Assembly (NCBI GenBank): GCA_021773015.1
Contig: JAJFKW010000001.1
Span: forward strand, 2,525,305-2,589,304
Origin: Woeseia sp.
GTDB lineage: Bacteria; Pseudomonadota; Gammaproteobacteria; Steroidobacterales; Woeseiaceae
DNA: 64,000 bases
Direction of reading: 5' to 3'
Below, piece by piece: positions 31,617-36,208 of this stretch. Position 1 is the first letter of the stretch; each line of letters starts with the position of its first letter. The notes under the pieces are model-generated. The model was not told the DNA's origin. It did no database searches and saw nothing but the letters and a program-made list of their open reading frames with translations. Position numbers and translations under genes: made by a program.

Positions 31617-32210
31617 TCAACCGGCCGCTCTGACCGCGTTGATAAATTCTTTGATCCGTTGTGGATCTTTTTTGCCCGGCTCGCTCTCAACCGCACTGGA
31701 GACGTCAACTGCCCACGGTCGCACGGTCTCAATCGCCTCTGCAACATTAGTAGCATCGAGCCCGCCCGCTAATATCATTTCGCCGTGCTTCGCCACTTTT
31801 GCTGCAACCTGCCAGTCGACTTGTTGGCCTTGTCCGCTGCCAGCGCCCTCGTAAACGAATCGGCTTGGCAAGGCCGACTGATTCTTAAGCACGTGTTCAC
31901 GAATGACCGGCCAGCGACTCATATGATGTGGCACCTGCAGATAATCGAAATCAGCCTGGTCGGTTTGGATGATGTCAGCATCAATTGCTAGCAAAATGGC
32001 TGCGGCCGTAGGTCCATCTGGATGCAGCATCACTGCAACCGTCAACACATCCATAGGCACCATTGCAGATAATGCGTTCGCGCGATCCAGGGTCAGGTTT
32101 CGCGGCGATTTTTGATGAAAAACGAAGCCGATCGCATCGGCCCCAGCTTCAACCGCGGCTGCCAGTGACGCTTCATCTGACAAACCACAAATTTTCACGC
32201 GAACGGTCAT
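31617..32210 (-). CDS. trpF: Phosphoribosylanthranilate isomerase
   Basis: This 197-residue TIM barrel carries out the Amadori rearrangement in tryptophan synthesis. Key elements are VKICGL with the catalytic cysteine, ADAIGFVFHQKSPRNLT, IIQTDQADF, and the phosphate-binding ILAGGLDATNV with the catalytic aspartate in AVDVSSAVESEPGKKD. It overlaps trpC by four bases. In Escherichia coli this domain is fused to TrpC; here it is separate. Confidence 0.96.
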   Translation of the reverse strand: MTVRVKICGLSDEASLAAAVEAGADAIGFVFHQKSPRNLTLDRANALSAMVPMDVLTVAVMLHPDGPTAAAILLAIDADIIQTDQADFDYLQVPHHMSRWPVIREHVLKNQSALPSRFVYEGAGSGQGQQVDWQVAAKVAKHGEMILAGGLDATNVAEAIETVRPWAVDVSSAVESEPGKKDPQRIKEFINAVRAAG

Positions 32211-33010
32211 GCAGCAACACCGGCGGCATGCAGCGCCGCAACCAGCTGCTGTGGTTCGTCACTACGCATCAATGCCGTTCCAACCAGCACGGCGGCGTAG
32301 CCGAGCGCGACCACCCTGGAAACATCTGCTGCATTCTGGATACCACTCTCTGCAACGCAAACTGCGTTCTGTGGCAGCAAACCGCTGAGTTTTTCTAATC
32401 GGTTGGCATCAACTTTCAGGGTACGCAAGTTGCGCGTGTTCACTCCTACAAGTAATTGCTGCTGCCCGGCTTTATCCGCGTGTTTTCGCGACGTTAGGAA
32501 ATTAGCAGTTCGCTGCAAATCGTTCGCATCGAATGCCTCCAGCAAAACGAACATGGAATGTTCCCAGGCGCAATCGAGCATGCTTGCCAGCATTTCATCG
32601 CTGAGCATCGCCGTAATCAGCAGAACACCGCTCGCACCGGCGGCGCGCGCCTCGATAATCTGCCGCGTATCAACCAGAAAATCTTTGCGCATGACGGGTA
32701 CGTCTCTGGCGATCGCAACAACATCTGCCAGGTGCGACATCGCGCCAGAAAATCGCGCCGGTTCAGTCAATACAGAAATTGCCATCGCACCACCCGCGAC
32801 GTATTGCAGTGCCTGTTGTTCGCGACTGCGCCCGGACTCGGTAAGCGCGCCCTCGGCAGGGGAGTGCTGTTTGATCTCGGCAATCACGCCAAATTTGTTG
32901 AGTTGTATAGGCGAAACTTGCCTGTCGAGGTTCTCACGCAGAGACGCCAACTCGATTGTTGAGGCGCGTTGCTCGCTCGATTTCGCCATTTGTTGTAGAA
33001 AGTCGCTCAT
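32207..33010 (-). CDS. trpC: Indole-3-glycerol phosphate synthase
   Basis: This 267-residue TIM barrel closes the indole ring. Diagnostic segments are GVIAEIKQHSPAEG with the catalytic lysine, ISVLTEPARFSGAM, VMRKDFLVDTRQIIEARAAG, VGVNTRNLRTLKVD, AESGIQNAADV and AVLVGTALM. It overlaps trpD and trpF by four bases each, which indicates translational coupling. Length is normal for the monofunctional form. Confidence 0.97.
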   Translation of the reverse strand: MSDFLQQMAKSSEQRASTIELASLRENLDRQVSPIQLNKFGVIAEIKQHSPAEGALTESGRSREQQALQYVAGGAMAISVLTEPARFSGAMSHLADVVAIARDVPVMRKDFLVDTRQIIEARAAGASGVLLITAMLSDEMLASMLDCAWEHSMFVLLEAFDANDLQRTANFLTSRKHADKAGQQQLLVGVNTRNLRTLKVDANRLEKLSGLLPQNAVCVAESGIQNAADVSRVVALGYAAVLVGTALMRSDEPQQLVAALHAAGVAA

Positions 33011-34035
33011 GCGCCGGAAAAGTGCATACGTATATTGCCAAGAAGTTTTTCCGCGGTGCCATTGTCAAGCGCTGCTTGCGCAACATCGACACCTTCGCGG
33101 GCGTCGGCGACCGCGCCGGATACCTCGAGAATCAAAGAGGTGCCCATTACTAGCGTATCGCGATGTGCGCCTTGGTCCTCGCCGGTAAATACACGTACCA
33201 GTTCGGCAGCATTATGTGCGGCATCGCCACCCGCCAAGTCTTCAGGTCGGCAAGGTGCAACGCCGTAGTCCGCAGCGCTGCGTTCCGTTCGCGTCACTTG
33301 GCCGTCGTGCACATCGAACAACGCGAAGTTACCCGCTGGTGTTGCCTCGTCCCAACCAGGTTCGCCGTGCACAACGAAGACACGCTCAACCGGTAAACCG
33401 GTCAGTGCGTCCGCCATCAGTTTTGCTGCGTTGAGACTATAAGCACCAATGAGTTGATACGGTGGCGCGGCCGGATTGGTCAGCGGTCCAAGAAAATTGA
33501 ATACGGTTCGCACGCCCATGGCACCGCGGACCGGCACTACAGACTTCATCGCTGGATGATAAGCCGGTGCGAATAAAAAGGTAAAACCGGTTGCCTCAAG
33601 CAATTTTATCGCTGCGGCTTCATCCAACGGCAAAGGAATTCCGAGACACTCCAACATATCCGCGCTGCCAGACTTGCTCGAAACGGAACGATTACCGTGT
33701 TTCACTATTCGTGCGCCGCAGGCAGACGCCAGCAACGCAGCTCCGGTCGATAGATTCAAGCTCCCCGAACCGTCGCCACCGGTACCAACCGCATCGACCG
33801 CTGGCGGCCCATCTGGGATTGACGGACGTATGGCGAGCTCACGCATCGCACTGGCGAAGCCGCGAATCTCCTCCGCCGTTTCGCCTTTAGCACGCAACGC
33901 AGCGAGCAATGCACCTGCCAACGCTTGCTGCATGTTGCCGCCAGCCAATTCCTGCATCAAATCGTAGGCTGCTTTTTCGGACAGCGAATTGCGCTCCAAC
34001 AGTTGATCCAATACCACAGAATAGTTTGTGCTCAT
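33007..34035 (-). CDS. trpD: Anthranilate phosphoribosyltransferase
   Basis: This 342-residue enzyme transfers phosphoribose from PRPP to anthranilate. It shows the glycine-rich PRPP loop VGTGGDGSGSLNLSTG, VKHGNRSVSSKSGSADMLE, FLFAPAYHPAMKSVVPVR, and RTVFNFLGPLTNPA. The start MSTNYSVVLDQLLERNSLS gives the usual helical N-terminal domain. It is independent of TrpG, unlike the fused Escherichia coli enzyme, and overlaps both neighbours by four bases. Confidence 0.97.
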   Translation of the reverse strand: MSTNYSVVLDQLLERNSLSEKAAYDLMQELAGGNMQQALAGALLAALRAKGETAEEIRGFASAMRELAIRPSIPDGPPAVDAVGTGGDGSGSLNLSTGAALLASACGARIVKHGNRSVSSKSGSADMLECLGIPLPLDEAAAIKLLEATGFTFLFAPAYHPAMKSVVPVRGAMGVRTVFNFLGPLTNPAAPPYQLIGAYSLNAAKLMADALTGLPVERVFVVHGEPGWDEATPAGNFALFDVHDGQVTRTERSAADYGVAPCRPEDLAGGDAAHNAAELVRVFTGEDQGAHRDTLVMGTSLILEVSGAVADAREGVDVAQAALDNGTAEKLLGNIRMHFSGA

Positions 34036-34622
34036 GTTGCGCTCATCCGCATGAAGTTCGCCATTAACTGGTCACCACTGGGCGTTAGTATGCTTTCCGG
34101 ATGAAATTGCACGCCCTCAAGCGCCAATTTTCGATGACGCACACCCATAATTTCACCGCGCTCTGTTTCTGCCGTCAGCAAAAGCGCATCTGGTAGCGTT
34201 TCGTGGCTTGCGCAAAGCGAGTGGTAGCGACCGGCTTCAAACGGTTGCGGCAGACCATCGAACAGCGTCTTGCCATCGTGCTTCACCATGGAGGTCTTGC
34301 CATGCATGATTCTCTCAGCGCGCACAATTTCTCCACCAAAATGACTGACGAGACACTGGTGACCCAAACAGACCCCCAGTATCGGCATGCGTTCCGCGAA
34401 TGCTGCAATGAGTTGCAGCGAAATACCGGCATCCTCGGGTCGGCCGGGCCCGGGTGATATCACCATGTGGGTCGCGGCAACCGCTTTGGCACTTTCAACA
34501 TCGATTGCGTCGTTACGATAAACAACCACTTCCGCGCCCTGCGCTGCAAATGCCTGGACCAGGTTGTAAGTAAAAGAATCGTAATTATCGATCATCAAAA
34601 TTCGCACGTCGTCGAAACTCAC
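34032..34622 (-). CDS. trpG: Anthranilate synthase component II (glutamine amidotransferase)
   Basis: This 196-residue class I amidotransferase supplies ammonia to TrpE. The nucleophile cysteine is in LGVCLGHQCL, the catalytic histidine/glutamate pair in VQFHPESILTP, and the oxyanion region in MVISPGPGRPEDAG. The N-terminus ILMIDNYDSFTYNLVQ is canonical. The same protein might also serve folate synthesis as PabA in organisms lacking a separate one; that is not decidable here. It overlaps trpE by four bases. Confidence 0.96.
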   Translation of the reverse strand: MSFDDVRILMIDNYDSFTYNLVQAFAAQGAEVVVYRNDAIDVESAKAVAATHMVISPGPGRPEDAGISLQLIAAFAERMPILGVCLGHQCLVSHFGGEIVRAERIMHGKTSMVKHDGKTLFDGLPQPFEAGRYHSLCASHETLPDALLLTAETERGEIMGVRHRKLALEGVQFHPESILTPSGDQLMANFMRMSAT

Positions 34623-36004
34623 AGCCCCTCCCCCGCCAATTCGAGAGCGTGTCGCAAAATCGCGCTTTTTGCGAGCACTTCCGCGTACTCTCGCTCTGCA
34701 ACACTATCAGCGACGATACCGGCGCCAGCCTGGAAACTAACTTCGTCACCGTTGAAAACCAGCGTGCGGATAGTAATTGCCTGATCCATATTCCCGCCAA
34801 CACCGAAATAGCCTGCCGTTCCAGCGTACAAACCGCGATTGCCAAGCTCCAATTCTTCGATGATTTCCATTGCCCTGACTTTTGGGGCACCCACCAATGT
34901 ACCGGCAGGAAAACTCGCGGCAAACAAGTCAAATGCGTCGAATTCTTCAGCCAATTGACCGCTGACGCCGCTAACGATATGCATCACGTGGCTGTATCGT
35001 TCGATCGCCCGGTACGGCTCGACAACGATGCTACCTGGCTCGGCGACCCGTCCGAGATCGTTGCGCGCGAGGTCAACCAGCATTACATGCTCTGCAGATT
35101 CTTTGGGGTCCGCGAGTAACTGCACCTCATTGGCCAGGTCCTCGGCCTTATCGGCGCCGCGTGGCAAGGTGCCCGCAATTGGACGTAGAGACGCCGTGCG
35201 GTCGCTGAGCTTTACCAACGCCTCCGGTGACGAACCAACTATCTTCAGCTCGCCAAATTCGAAATAGAACATGTACGGTGATGGATTGAGTAAACGTAGT
35301 GCGCGGTACACCTCAAAGGCATCGACGTTGGTTCGGCCTTTGAATAAAACGGACATGACGATTTGGTATATATCCCCTGCGGCGATGTGATCCTTGCAAA
35401 CCTCTACGCGCTCGCGGAACTCACCCTCAGTCATGCCAGCCGCTGGCGCACCAACGTTGACCTTGTTTGTTGCGATCGGTATTGGCCCACGCAAGAGATC
35501 CATGATTTCTTTTCGTAACGACTGACGATCCGCCTCACTGCCGTCGTGTAACAATGCGACGCGTCGAGTTAGGTGGTCGAAGACCAGCATCGAAGACGGC
35601 GCAGCGAATGCAGCGCGGGGAATGCCGGCGCGCGGCGCAGCGGTTGCCGGTAGCTTCTCAAACAGCCGTACGATGTCGTACCCCGACACGCCAACCAAAC
35701 CACCCGCAAACCCTAAGTCCGGTAACGCCGGTTTTAATTTGGGGACCAGCTGCAGCGCGTCACGCAACGTTTGCAAATAATCTGCTTGCGAAGTCGGCGT
35801 CGGTAATACGCGGTCACCATGACGCAATCCCGCCTCATCGAACCACAAATCTACGGACTCGCCAAAGCCCAGAAACGAATAGCGCGCCAGACGCTCGCCA
35901 CCCTCCACGCTTTCCAATAAAAAGCGTGGCTTGAGCACGCTCAGTTTCAAATACGCGGATACCGGCGTATCTAAATCTGCGGCAATGTCAAAAGGTGCTT
36001 GCAT
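34619..36004 (-). CDS. trpE: Anthranilate synthase component I
   Basis: This roughly 461-residue enzyme converts chorismate to anthranilate. C-terminal chorismate-binding signatures are FYFEFGELKIVGSSPEALV, LRPIAGTLPRG, LMLVDLARNDLGRV-type sequence, the SFPAGTLVGAPKVRAMEII box and YAGTAGYFGVGG. The N-terminal part (LDTPVSAYLKL, then RFLLESVEGGERLARYSFLG) holds the feedback site. I choose ATG 36004 (MQAPF) because in-frame ATG 36028 lies at the end of the attenuator U-run and GTG 36040 inside its hairpin; 36028 remains possible. It is the first structural gene of the operon. Confidence 0.95.
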   Translation of the reverse strand: MQAPFDIAADLDTPVSAYLKLSVLKPRFLLESVEGGERLARYSFLGFGESVDLWFDEAGLRHGDRVLPTPTSQADYLQTLRDALQLVPKLKPALPDLGFAGGLVGVSGYDIVRLFEKLPATAAPRAGIPRAAFAAPSSMLVFDHLTRRVALLHDGSEADRQSLRKEIMDLLRGPIPIATNKVNVGAPAAGMTEGEFRERVEVCKDHIAAGDIYQIVMSVLFKGRTNVDAFEVYRALRLLNPSPYMFYFEFGELKIVGSSPEALVKLSDRTASLRPIAGTLPRGADKAEDLANEVQLLADPKESAEHVMLVDLARNDLGRVAEPGSIVVEPYRAIERYSHVMHIVSGVSGQLAEEFDAFDLFAASFPAGTLVGAPKVRAMEIIEELELGNRGLYAGTAGYFGVGGNMDQAITIRTLVFNGDEVSFQAGAGIVADSVAEREYAEVLAKSAILRHALELAGEGL

Positions 36005-36026: not shown

Positions 36027-36063
36027 ATAAAAAAACCCACCTGCGCTTTACAGCGGAGATGGG
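36027..36063 (-). terminator. trp attenuator (intrinsic terminator in the leader)
   Basis: On the minus strand ACCCATCTCCGC (5' arm) and GCGCAGGTGGGT (3' arm) form a stem of about 12 pairs with one mismatch, followed directly by seven T residues. It lies between the leader peptide and trpE. The 5' arm contains CCATCTCC, which is perfectly complementary to GGAGATGG inside the leader (36110-36103). That provides the alternative antiterminator pairing expected of trp attenuation. Confidence 0.9.
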
Positions 36064-36091
36064 TTCTTGTCGATTGATCTTTGAACGAACG

Positions 36092-36172
36092 TCAGTTGAC
36101 AGCCATCTCCTTGGGGAGTGACCACCACCAGTTACGATTCTGTCGGTTCGCGTTGCGTGTCGGATGTTTCAT
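36092..36172 (-). CDS. trpL: trp operon leader peptide
   Basis: This 26-residue reading frame (MKHPTRNANRQNRN, then WWW, then SLPKEMAVN) contains three consecutive tryptophan codons at 36130-36122. It is followed by an intrinsic terminator and trpE. Ribosome stalling at these codons when charged tRNA-Trp is scarce would leave GGAGATGG (codons 21-24) free to pair with the terminator 5' arm and let transcription continue. Ribosome passage to the stop would mask it and allow termination. There is no ribosome-binding site, and the promoter -10 ends only eight bases before the ATG. Confidence 0.92.
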   Translation of the reverse strand: MKHPTRNANRQNRNWWWSLPKEMAVN

Positions 36173-36180
36173 TGGCTCGA

Positions 36181-36208
36181 GTATTACCAGGGAAATCGCT
36201 CACGTCAA
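36181..36208 (-). promoter_or_regulatory. trp operon promoter (sigma-70 type)
   Basis: On the minus strand TTGACG (36208-36203) and TAATAC (36186-36181) are separated by 16 bases, close to the sigma-70 consensus. The predicted transcription start falls within a few bases of the trpL ATG at 36172. The leader transcript would therefore have almost no 5' untranslated region. No obvious TrpR palindrome overlaps the elements. Confidence 0.75.

Follow-up and report, generated by a model that had tools for sequence, protein, structure and literature searches.

The trpEGDC operon of this Woeseia sp. is very probably controlled by a ribosome-mediated transcription attenuator whose leader peptide, TrpL, is encoded on a leaderless mRNA. 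The leaderless state of trpL is strongly supported by comparison with relatives, in which a promoter stands at an almost fixed distance from the trpL start codon, and the predicted transcription start follows from that distance. Leaderless trpL genes are themselves known; what is new is an order-level gammaproteobacterial lineage with a tightly spaced and, as predicted here, leaderless trp attenuator. The operon lies in a genome of 4.84 Mb, on the minus strand of the window, by which we mean the whole stretch of 64,000 nucleotides that was analyzed; NCBI taxonomy places Woeseiaceae in the order Woeseiales of the Gammaproteobacteria. A Woeseiaceae-like host is also indicated by two related loci with identical trpE upstreams, L004 from a same-family genome and L033 from a MAG named Woeseia sp., the TrpE of L033 being 76% identical to that of the window. 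The features, in positions of the window, are as follows.

36208 leftward to 32207, minus strand: trpL attenuator and trpEGDC operon
36203..36208, minus strand: −35 hexamer TTGACG, read from the sequence; its TTGAC is common to all 115 Trp-cluster leaders
36180..36185, minus strand: −10 hexamer AATACT, from the promoter scan, behind a 17-nt spacer; NATACT in relatives
36172..36173, minus strand: predicted transcription start, A36173 or A36172, from a 7-nt spacing to the −10; 5′ UTR of 0–1 nt
36092..36172, minus strand: trpL ORF, 26 aa, MKHPTRNANRQNRNWWWSLPKEMAVN, with its ATG at 36172 and stop codon at 36094–36092
36122..36130, minus strand: three consecutive Trp codons, TGG TGG TGG, read from the sequence
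36101..36123, minus strand: 1:2 (pause) hairpin, GGTCACTCC-CCAA-GGAGATGGCT, −9.3 kcal/mol, present in the whole-leader MFE
36103..36110, minus strand: region 2, GGAGATGG, 5′ arm of the antiterminator within the 3′ end of trpL, exact complement of region 3
36055..36062, minus strand: region 3, CCATCTCC, common to the antiterminator and the 5′ arm of the terminator, from the sequence and an alignment of 52 leaders
36033..36066, minus strand: terminator stem-loop, −20.2 kcal/mol, with covariation in relatives
36029..36035, minus strand: T7 tail of the terminator, read from the sequence
34619..36004, minus strand: trpE, anthranilate synthase I, best model NCBIfam trpE_most TIGR00564
34032..34622, minus strand: trpG, NCBIfam TIGR00566, 241.4 bits, over the cut-off
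33007..34035, minus strand: trpD, NCBIfam TIGR01245, 358.7 bits, over the cut-off
32207..33010, minus strand: trpC, best NCBIfam model TrpC NF001377, E 6.8e-57, under the cut-off

TrpE scores 470.4 bits against trpE_most, under the cut-off of 517.7, with trpE_proteo scoring much lower, and an additional in-frame ATG for trpE lies at 36028, immediately 3′ of the T7 tail. Among 299 sampled phylum-level genomes, the TrpE matches listed at E <= 1e-115 come from the own genome only, and the phylum-level matches listed belong to the same class.

Judged by its hexamers, the window promoter is of the sigma-70 type. The original prediction had paired TTGACG with TAATAC across 16 bases and placed the transcription start within a few bases of the trpL ATG, leaving no room for a ribosome-binding site. 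TTGACG and a site close to the ATG stand, while the TAATAC and its 16-base spacer give way to AATACT and 17 nt, the register conserved in relatives; TAATAC (36186–36181) is the same −10 site read one base upstream. Between AATACT and the ATG lie 7 nt, cgagcca, which indeed hold no Shine–Dalgarno core. With this spacing, transcription should begin at A36172 or A36173, the latter being the base directly 5′ of the ATG, and no other in-frame start codon occurs between that ATG and the Trp codons. A promoter scan of both strands of 1.2 kb gave one site against 1.0 expected, no better than chance; the significance of the promoter comes from its spacing in relatives.

Regions upstream of trpE were gathered from 131 loci, the window's own (L003) included, giving 121 distinct sequences, 115 with a small ORF containing a W.?W cluster and, among these, 111 distinct leaders; the second copy of the window (L001) and a paralogue (L002) were left out before counting. 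A same-family or same-order label is carried by 51 of the loci, own genome included, and the other 80 are named MAGs grouped with the order by TrpE identity alone (59–76%), a few of which, recorded as Rhodospirillaceae or Rhodospirillales, were taken as misnamed and kept. The order-level relatives span 16 family codes, 13 of them with leaders of conserved spacing; family f12 is represented by a different TrpE alone (L157), and f7 and f14, each a single genome, by distant matches alone (E about 1e-66). Conservation of the leader peptide, on which the original prediction hung, is borne out by a Trp-codon leader in 115 of the 121 distinct upstreams. As for the remainder, L018 and L060 have no W.?W ORF, their upstreams being cut at the contig end, L092 has TTGAC 37 nt from its start but just one Trp codon, L157 has no W.?W ORF and another TrpE (46% identical), and in L111 and L150, both from Gammaproteobacteria bacterium TMED78, no trp leader or terminator is visible before trpE. 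Two further peculiarities were seen here: trpE of TMED78 sits directly 3′ of a transporter-like ORF, and in L060, from a Woeseiaceae MAG, the interval from the trp terminator to trpE holds a tandem array in which an anchor motif occurs in four copies at a period of 52 nt.

A TTGAC lies 33–40 nt 5′ of an in-frame start in 114 of the 115 leaders by script and, by hand, at 38 nt in the last (L149), whereas 200 rounds of shuffling the upstream 120 nt placed one there in 2.3 of the 115 on average and never in more than 7. The promoter-to-ATG comparison that had been proposed beforehand, with a start within a few bases of the ATG as its expectation, returned 35–39 nt in all 111 distinct leaders, with 16, 51, 21, 18 and 5 of them at 35, 36, 37, 38 and 39 nt. 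The pattern is similar in the 45 kinship-labelled leaders (4, 25, 5, 9 and 2 at the same distances) and in the 66 from named MAGs (12, 26, 16, 9 and 3); for six leaders with several in-frame starts 33–40 nt from TTGAC, the one nearest 36.5 nt was used. The −10, searched only up to 14 nt from the start codon, reads NATACT in 97 of the 111 (GATACT 39, AATACT 36, CATACT 22) and is weak in 7 (TAAAAG, TACAAA, TAAAAC), its end falling 6, 7, 8, 9 and 10 nt from the start codon in 20, 55, 22, 10 and 4 leaders. That codon is ATG in 110, as in the window, and GTG in L147. The base before it is C in 79 of the 111, whereas C makes up 28% of the sequence upstream of the promoter; this would suit a C/A initiator in which the first base of the ATG is the A. 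The stretch from −10 to start in relatives is often rich in C+G (cggccc, cgccgc) and resembles the discriminators of stringently controlled promoters.

This regularity bears on two other readings of the promoter. A single-sequence scan finds just as many sites by chance, yet it is scarcely conceivable that the match beside the ATG is itself accidental when 115 of 115 Trp-cluster leaders share the spacing against the shuffled mean of 2.3, and none of 67 outgroup upstreams does. It is also very improbable that a genuine attenuator is transcribed from another promoter further upstream, trpL being translated from an ordinary leadered mRNA. Such a promoter might hide among promoter-like sites, which occur at shuffle level, or belong to an alternative sigma factor, a class outside the scope of the scan; however, neither the scan nor conservation in relatives revealed a second promoter upstream of trpL. 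There is almost no conservation upstream of the −35: in an alignment of 91 representatives below 75% identity, every column beyond the 20 nt next to TTGAC stays at or below 0.22 bits, and within those 20 nt the C adjoining TTGAC is the single position above 0.5 bits. Shine–Dalgarno cores, which a leadered mRNA would be expected to show, fall within −16 to −4 of just 7 of 111 trpL starts against 35 of 111 trpE starts (the latter approximate), and a start further upstream would leave unexplained why the spacing of −35 and −10 relative to the start codon is maintained in all 111 leaders. The distance from the trpL start to trpE varies from 126 to 362 nt.

Outside the order this arrangement was not found. 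The outgroup comprised 67 of 130 other-order gammaproteobacterial trpE matches, mostly the higher-scoring ones (27 and 40 loci), and TTGAC stood 33–40 nt before a leader start in none of the 67; a single locus, L197, passed a looser 5-of-6 criterion. A small W.?W ORF precedes trpE in 22 of the 67 and is similar in that respect, but without TTGAC at 33–40 nt. Many other-order trpE genes, read by eye, closely follow the end of another gene, presumably gph in many cases. At L116, L117, L122, L209 and other class-level loci, WRW occurs near the end of a small ORF just before trpE, for example MNLEPQTAFTPWRWRA, and these ORFs, lacking the promoter spacing, may represent another type of trp leader, used elsewhere in the Gammaproteobacteria.

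Within the own genome, the pattern TTGAC-N18-20-ATACT-N5-8-ATG matched twice, at trpL and at one other site (L161), and the reversed pattern not at all; the second match, which opens a frame of 14 codons running antisense to the end of an ORF of 267 aa, was judged to be chance. A general check for leaderless genes over 384 kb (16 pieces of 20 kb plus the window), with crude gene calling that gave 274 genes and 403 candidate ATG starts, counted 3, 8, 2, 3 and 3 −10-like hexamers ending 5, 6, 7, 8 and 9 nt before an ATG, against a background at 12–53 nt with a mean of 3.0 (sd 2.0) and a highest value of 8. In these 384 kb, −10 hexamers are thus not clearly enriched beside ATG codons in general, though the 8 at 6 nt could include a few such genes.

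The RNA elements of the window are those of an attenuator: the three Trp codons, the 8-base antiterminator match (8 of 8 pairs between regions 2 and 3) and the T7-tailed terminator that had been described were all recovered on the minus strand. The presence of the 1:2 hairpin completes the four-segment plan, and four-segment attenuation is the mode of the E. coli trp attenuator, which likewise has tandem Trp codons and a T-run terminator before trpE. In E. coli K-12, by contrast, TTGACA lies 62 nt before the trpL ATG, with room for a 5′ UTR, and there are two Trp codons. The window leader as a whole folds with z = −2.06, 4 of 200 shuffles folding as well. No Rfam family, any trp leader included, reaches its gathering threshold in a scan of the leader, the best weak match being a sub-threshold Enterococcus sRNA (E 0.6).

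Among relatives, the script located a T-run terminator in 102 of the 111 leaders (median −20.2 kcal/mol) and failed in nine. The alignment (A1) began with 82 representatives having a terminator and at most 150 nt, of which 73 were at most 115 nt, and was reduced to 60 and then, dropping eight by eye, to 52. In these 52 aligned leaders, 88.2% of the cells of the terminator stem are paired, and 56 double-change cells compare with 15.0 in shuffled alignments, none of 500 shuffles reaching 56. The antiterminator is paired in 82.6% of cells and best in its own register, with weak covariation (8 double-change cells against 4.0 shuffled, a value reached in 7 of 500 shuffles), and 45 of 51 sequences do not form its sixth pair; duplex energies between region 2 and region 3 are modestly better than those of shuffles (median z −1.3). 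Apart from the Trp residues, the peptide is best conserved at its C-terminal end (often EGAAG, ERVAG or EWVAG), which RNA pairing explains, since this end overlaps region 2.

Folding was also modeled with a ribosome, the part of the RNA that it covers being removed beforehand. When a ribosome occupies a Trp codon and transcription has advanced as far as region 3, the antiterminator folds (−16.6 to −16.9 kcal/mol); when it occupies the stop codon of the full RNA, the terminator folds (−22.3 kcal/mol). For full-length RNA with a stalled ribosome the terminator is still preferred (−28.1 kcal/mol), and since it wins despite the stall, antitermination must be kinetic, decided during transcription. 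In RNA free of ribosomes and made to region 3, region 2 pairs with region 3 (−27.2 kcal/mol), so that the folding does not clearly predict a protective role for the 1:2 hairpin.

From these elements the following sequence of events can be proposed. RNA polymerase would start on the first base of the trpL ATG or on the base preceding it, and a ribosome, presumably as a 70S particle, would initiate on the 5′-terminal AUG and follow the polymerase. When charged Trp-tRNA is scarce, the ribosome would stall on the Trp codons at 36130–36122 and mask region 1, allowing region 2 (GGAGATGG) to pair with region 3 (CCATCTCC) before the 3′ arm of the terminator is made; with the antiterminator formed, trpE, trpG, trpD and trpC would be transcribed in response to the shortage of Trp. 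When Trp is plentiful, the ribosome would reach the stop codon at 36094–36092 and cover region 2, and the 3:4 terminator with its T7 would form. The 5′-terminal AUG could alternatively be real and yet be served by ordinary 30S initiation on a very short UTR, with no special 70S pathway. We regard this as a minority reading that deserves some weight: the UTRs predicted across the leaders run from 0 to about 4 nt and are not all strictly zero, but 0–4 nt is too short for a Shine–Dalgarno sequence.

The closest known parallels lie outside the Gammaproteobacteria. For Sinorhizobium meliloti, the available parts of PMC7298713 describe an rnTrpL RNA that begins at the trpL ATG, citing Bae and Crawford 1990, and those of PMC7298713 and PMC10117765 a trpL translated as a leaderless mRNA according to Ribo-seq. 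To the extent of these accounts, trpLE(G) of S. meliloti resembles the Woeseia leader in its AUG-first transcript (predicted here), its tandem Trp codons and its terminator before trpE(G). It differs in belonging to the Alphaproteobacteria and in having a fused trpE(G) and a different peptide, where the gammaproteobacterial operon has separate trpE and trpG genes in trpEGDC and a 26-aa trpL whose 3′ end carries region 2. In Streptomyces lividans, leaderless leaders are listed for trpL1, trpL2, leuL1, leuL2, ilvL, metL and thrL in the accessible portion of PMC8079986, where trpL1-trpE shares with the window a leaderless peptide (predicted here) with three Trp codons (MFAHSTRNWWWTAHPAAH in S. 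lividans) before trpE; as far as that portion goes, the differences are that S. lividans belongs to the Actinobacteria and has a monocistronic trpE. The leaderless architecture in which the original prediction saw an "unusual regulatory twist" is supported by comparison, but its novelty was overstated, a leaderless trpL being known, on these partial accounts, from both organisms. Titles and partial abstracts named no leaderless trpL from Gammaproteobacteria or Woeseiaceae, which is weak evidence of novelty, most subscription papers lying outside that survey.

The parallel with S. meliloti raises one further function. The terminated Woeseia leader might also persist as a stable small RNA and act in trans, either through its peptide, as a leaderless mRNA, or directly, as an sRNA, its anatomy being the same as that of rnTrpL/peTrpL as far as the available text of PMC7298713 describes it. 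We consider this improbable, as RNA pairing accounts for the conserved C-terminal end of the peptide, where the coding sequence overlaps region 2.

A predicted leaderless leader, with its spacing fixed to a few bases, appears to have been kept by a lineage of mostly uncultured Gammaproteobacteria, and this suggests that leaderless leader peptides are not peculiar to rhizobia and actinobacteria. Leaderless mRNAs are thought to be rare in Gammaproteobacteria. One may speculate, as a doubtful proposition, that the order has kept its trp attenuator leaderless, with one loss seen, that the arrangement arose separately from those of Alphaproteobacteria and Actinobacteria, and that it has been selected because 5′-AUG (70S) initiation is part of the control. 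If so, any condition that moves initiation toward 70S or toward 30S ribosomes would set trp expression regardless of Trp. The 91 diverged leaders provide a natural series for studying how ribosome loading on a 5′-terminal AUG is coupled to transcription.

Some minor observations concern other loci of the own genome. As regards other attenuators, no leader peptide was seen by eye upstream of five of eight TPP-enzyme (ilvB-like) matches, or upstream of the longest ORF at the hisG locus, an ORF other than hisG. A TGA inside the trpE-like paralogue was rejected as an internal stop, being the gene's own stop codon, overrun by the alignment. A gene of the Trp_repressor family (PF01371) was found in 29 of 40 genomes searched, the own genome included, where it lies at G000:C1:362486-362731, about 0.2 kb upstream of the HisG match at 362945-363439. 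Family members known as HisR or YerC-like have the same position, and because the gene adjoins hisG it is probably a histidine regulator rather than TrpR.
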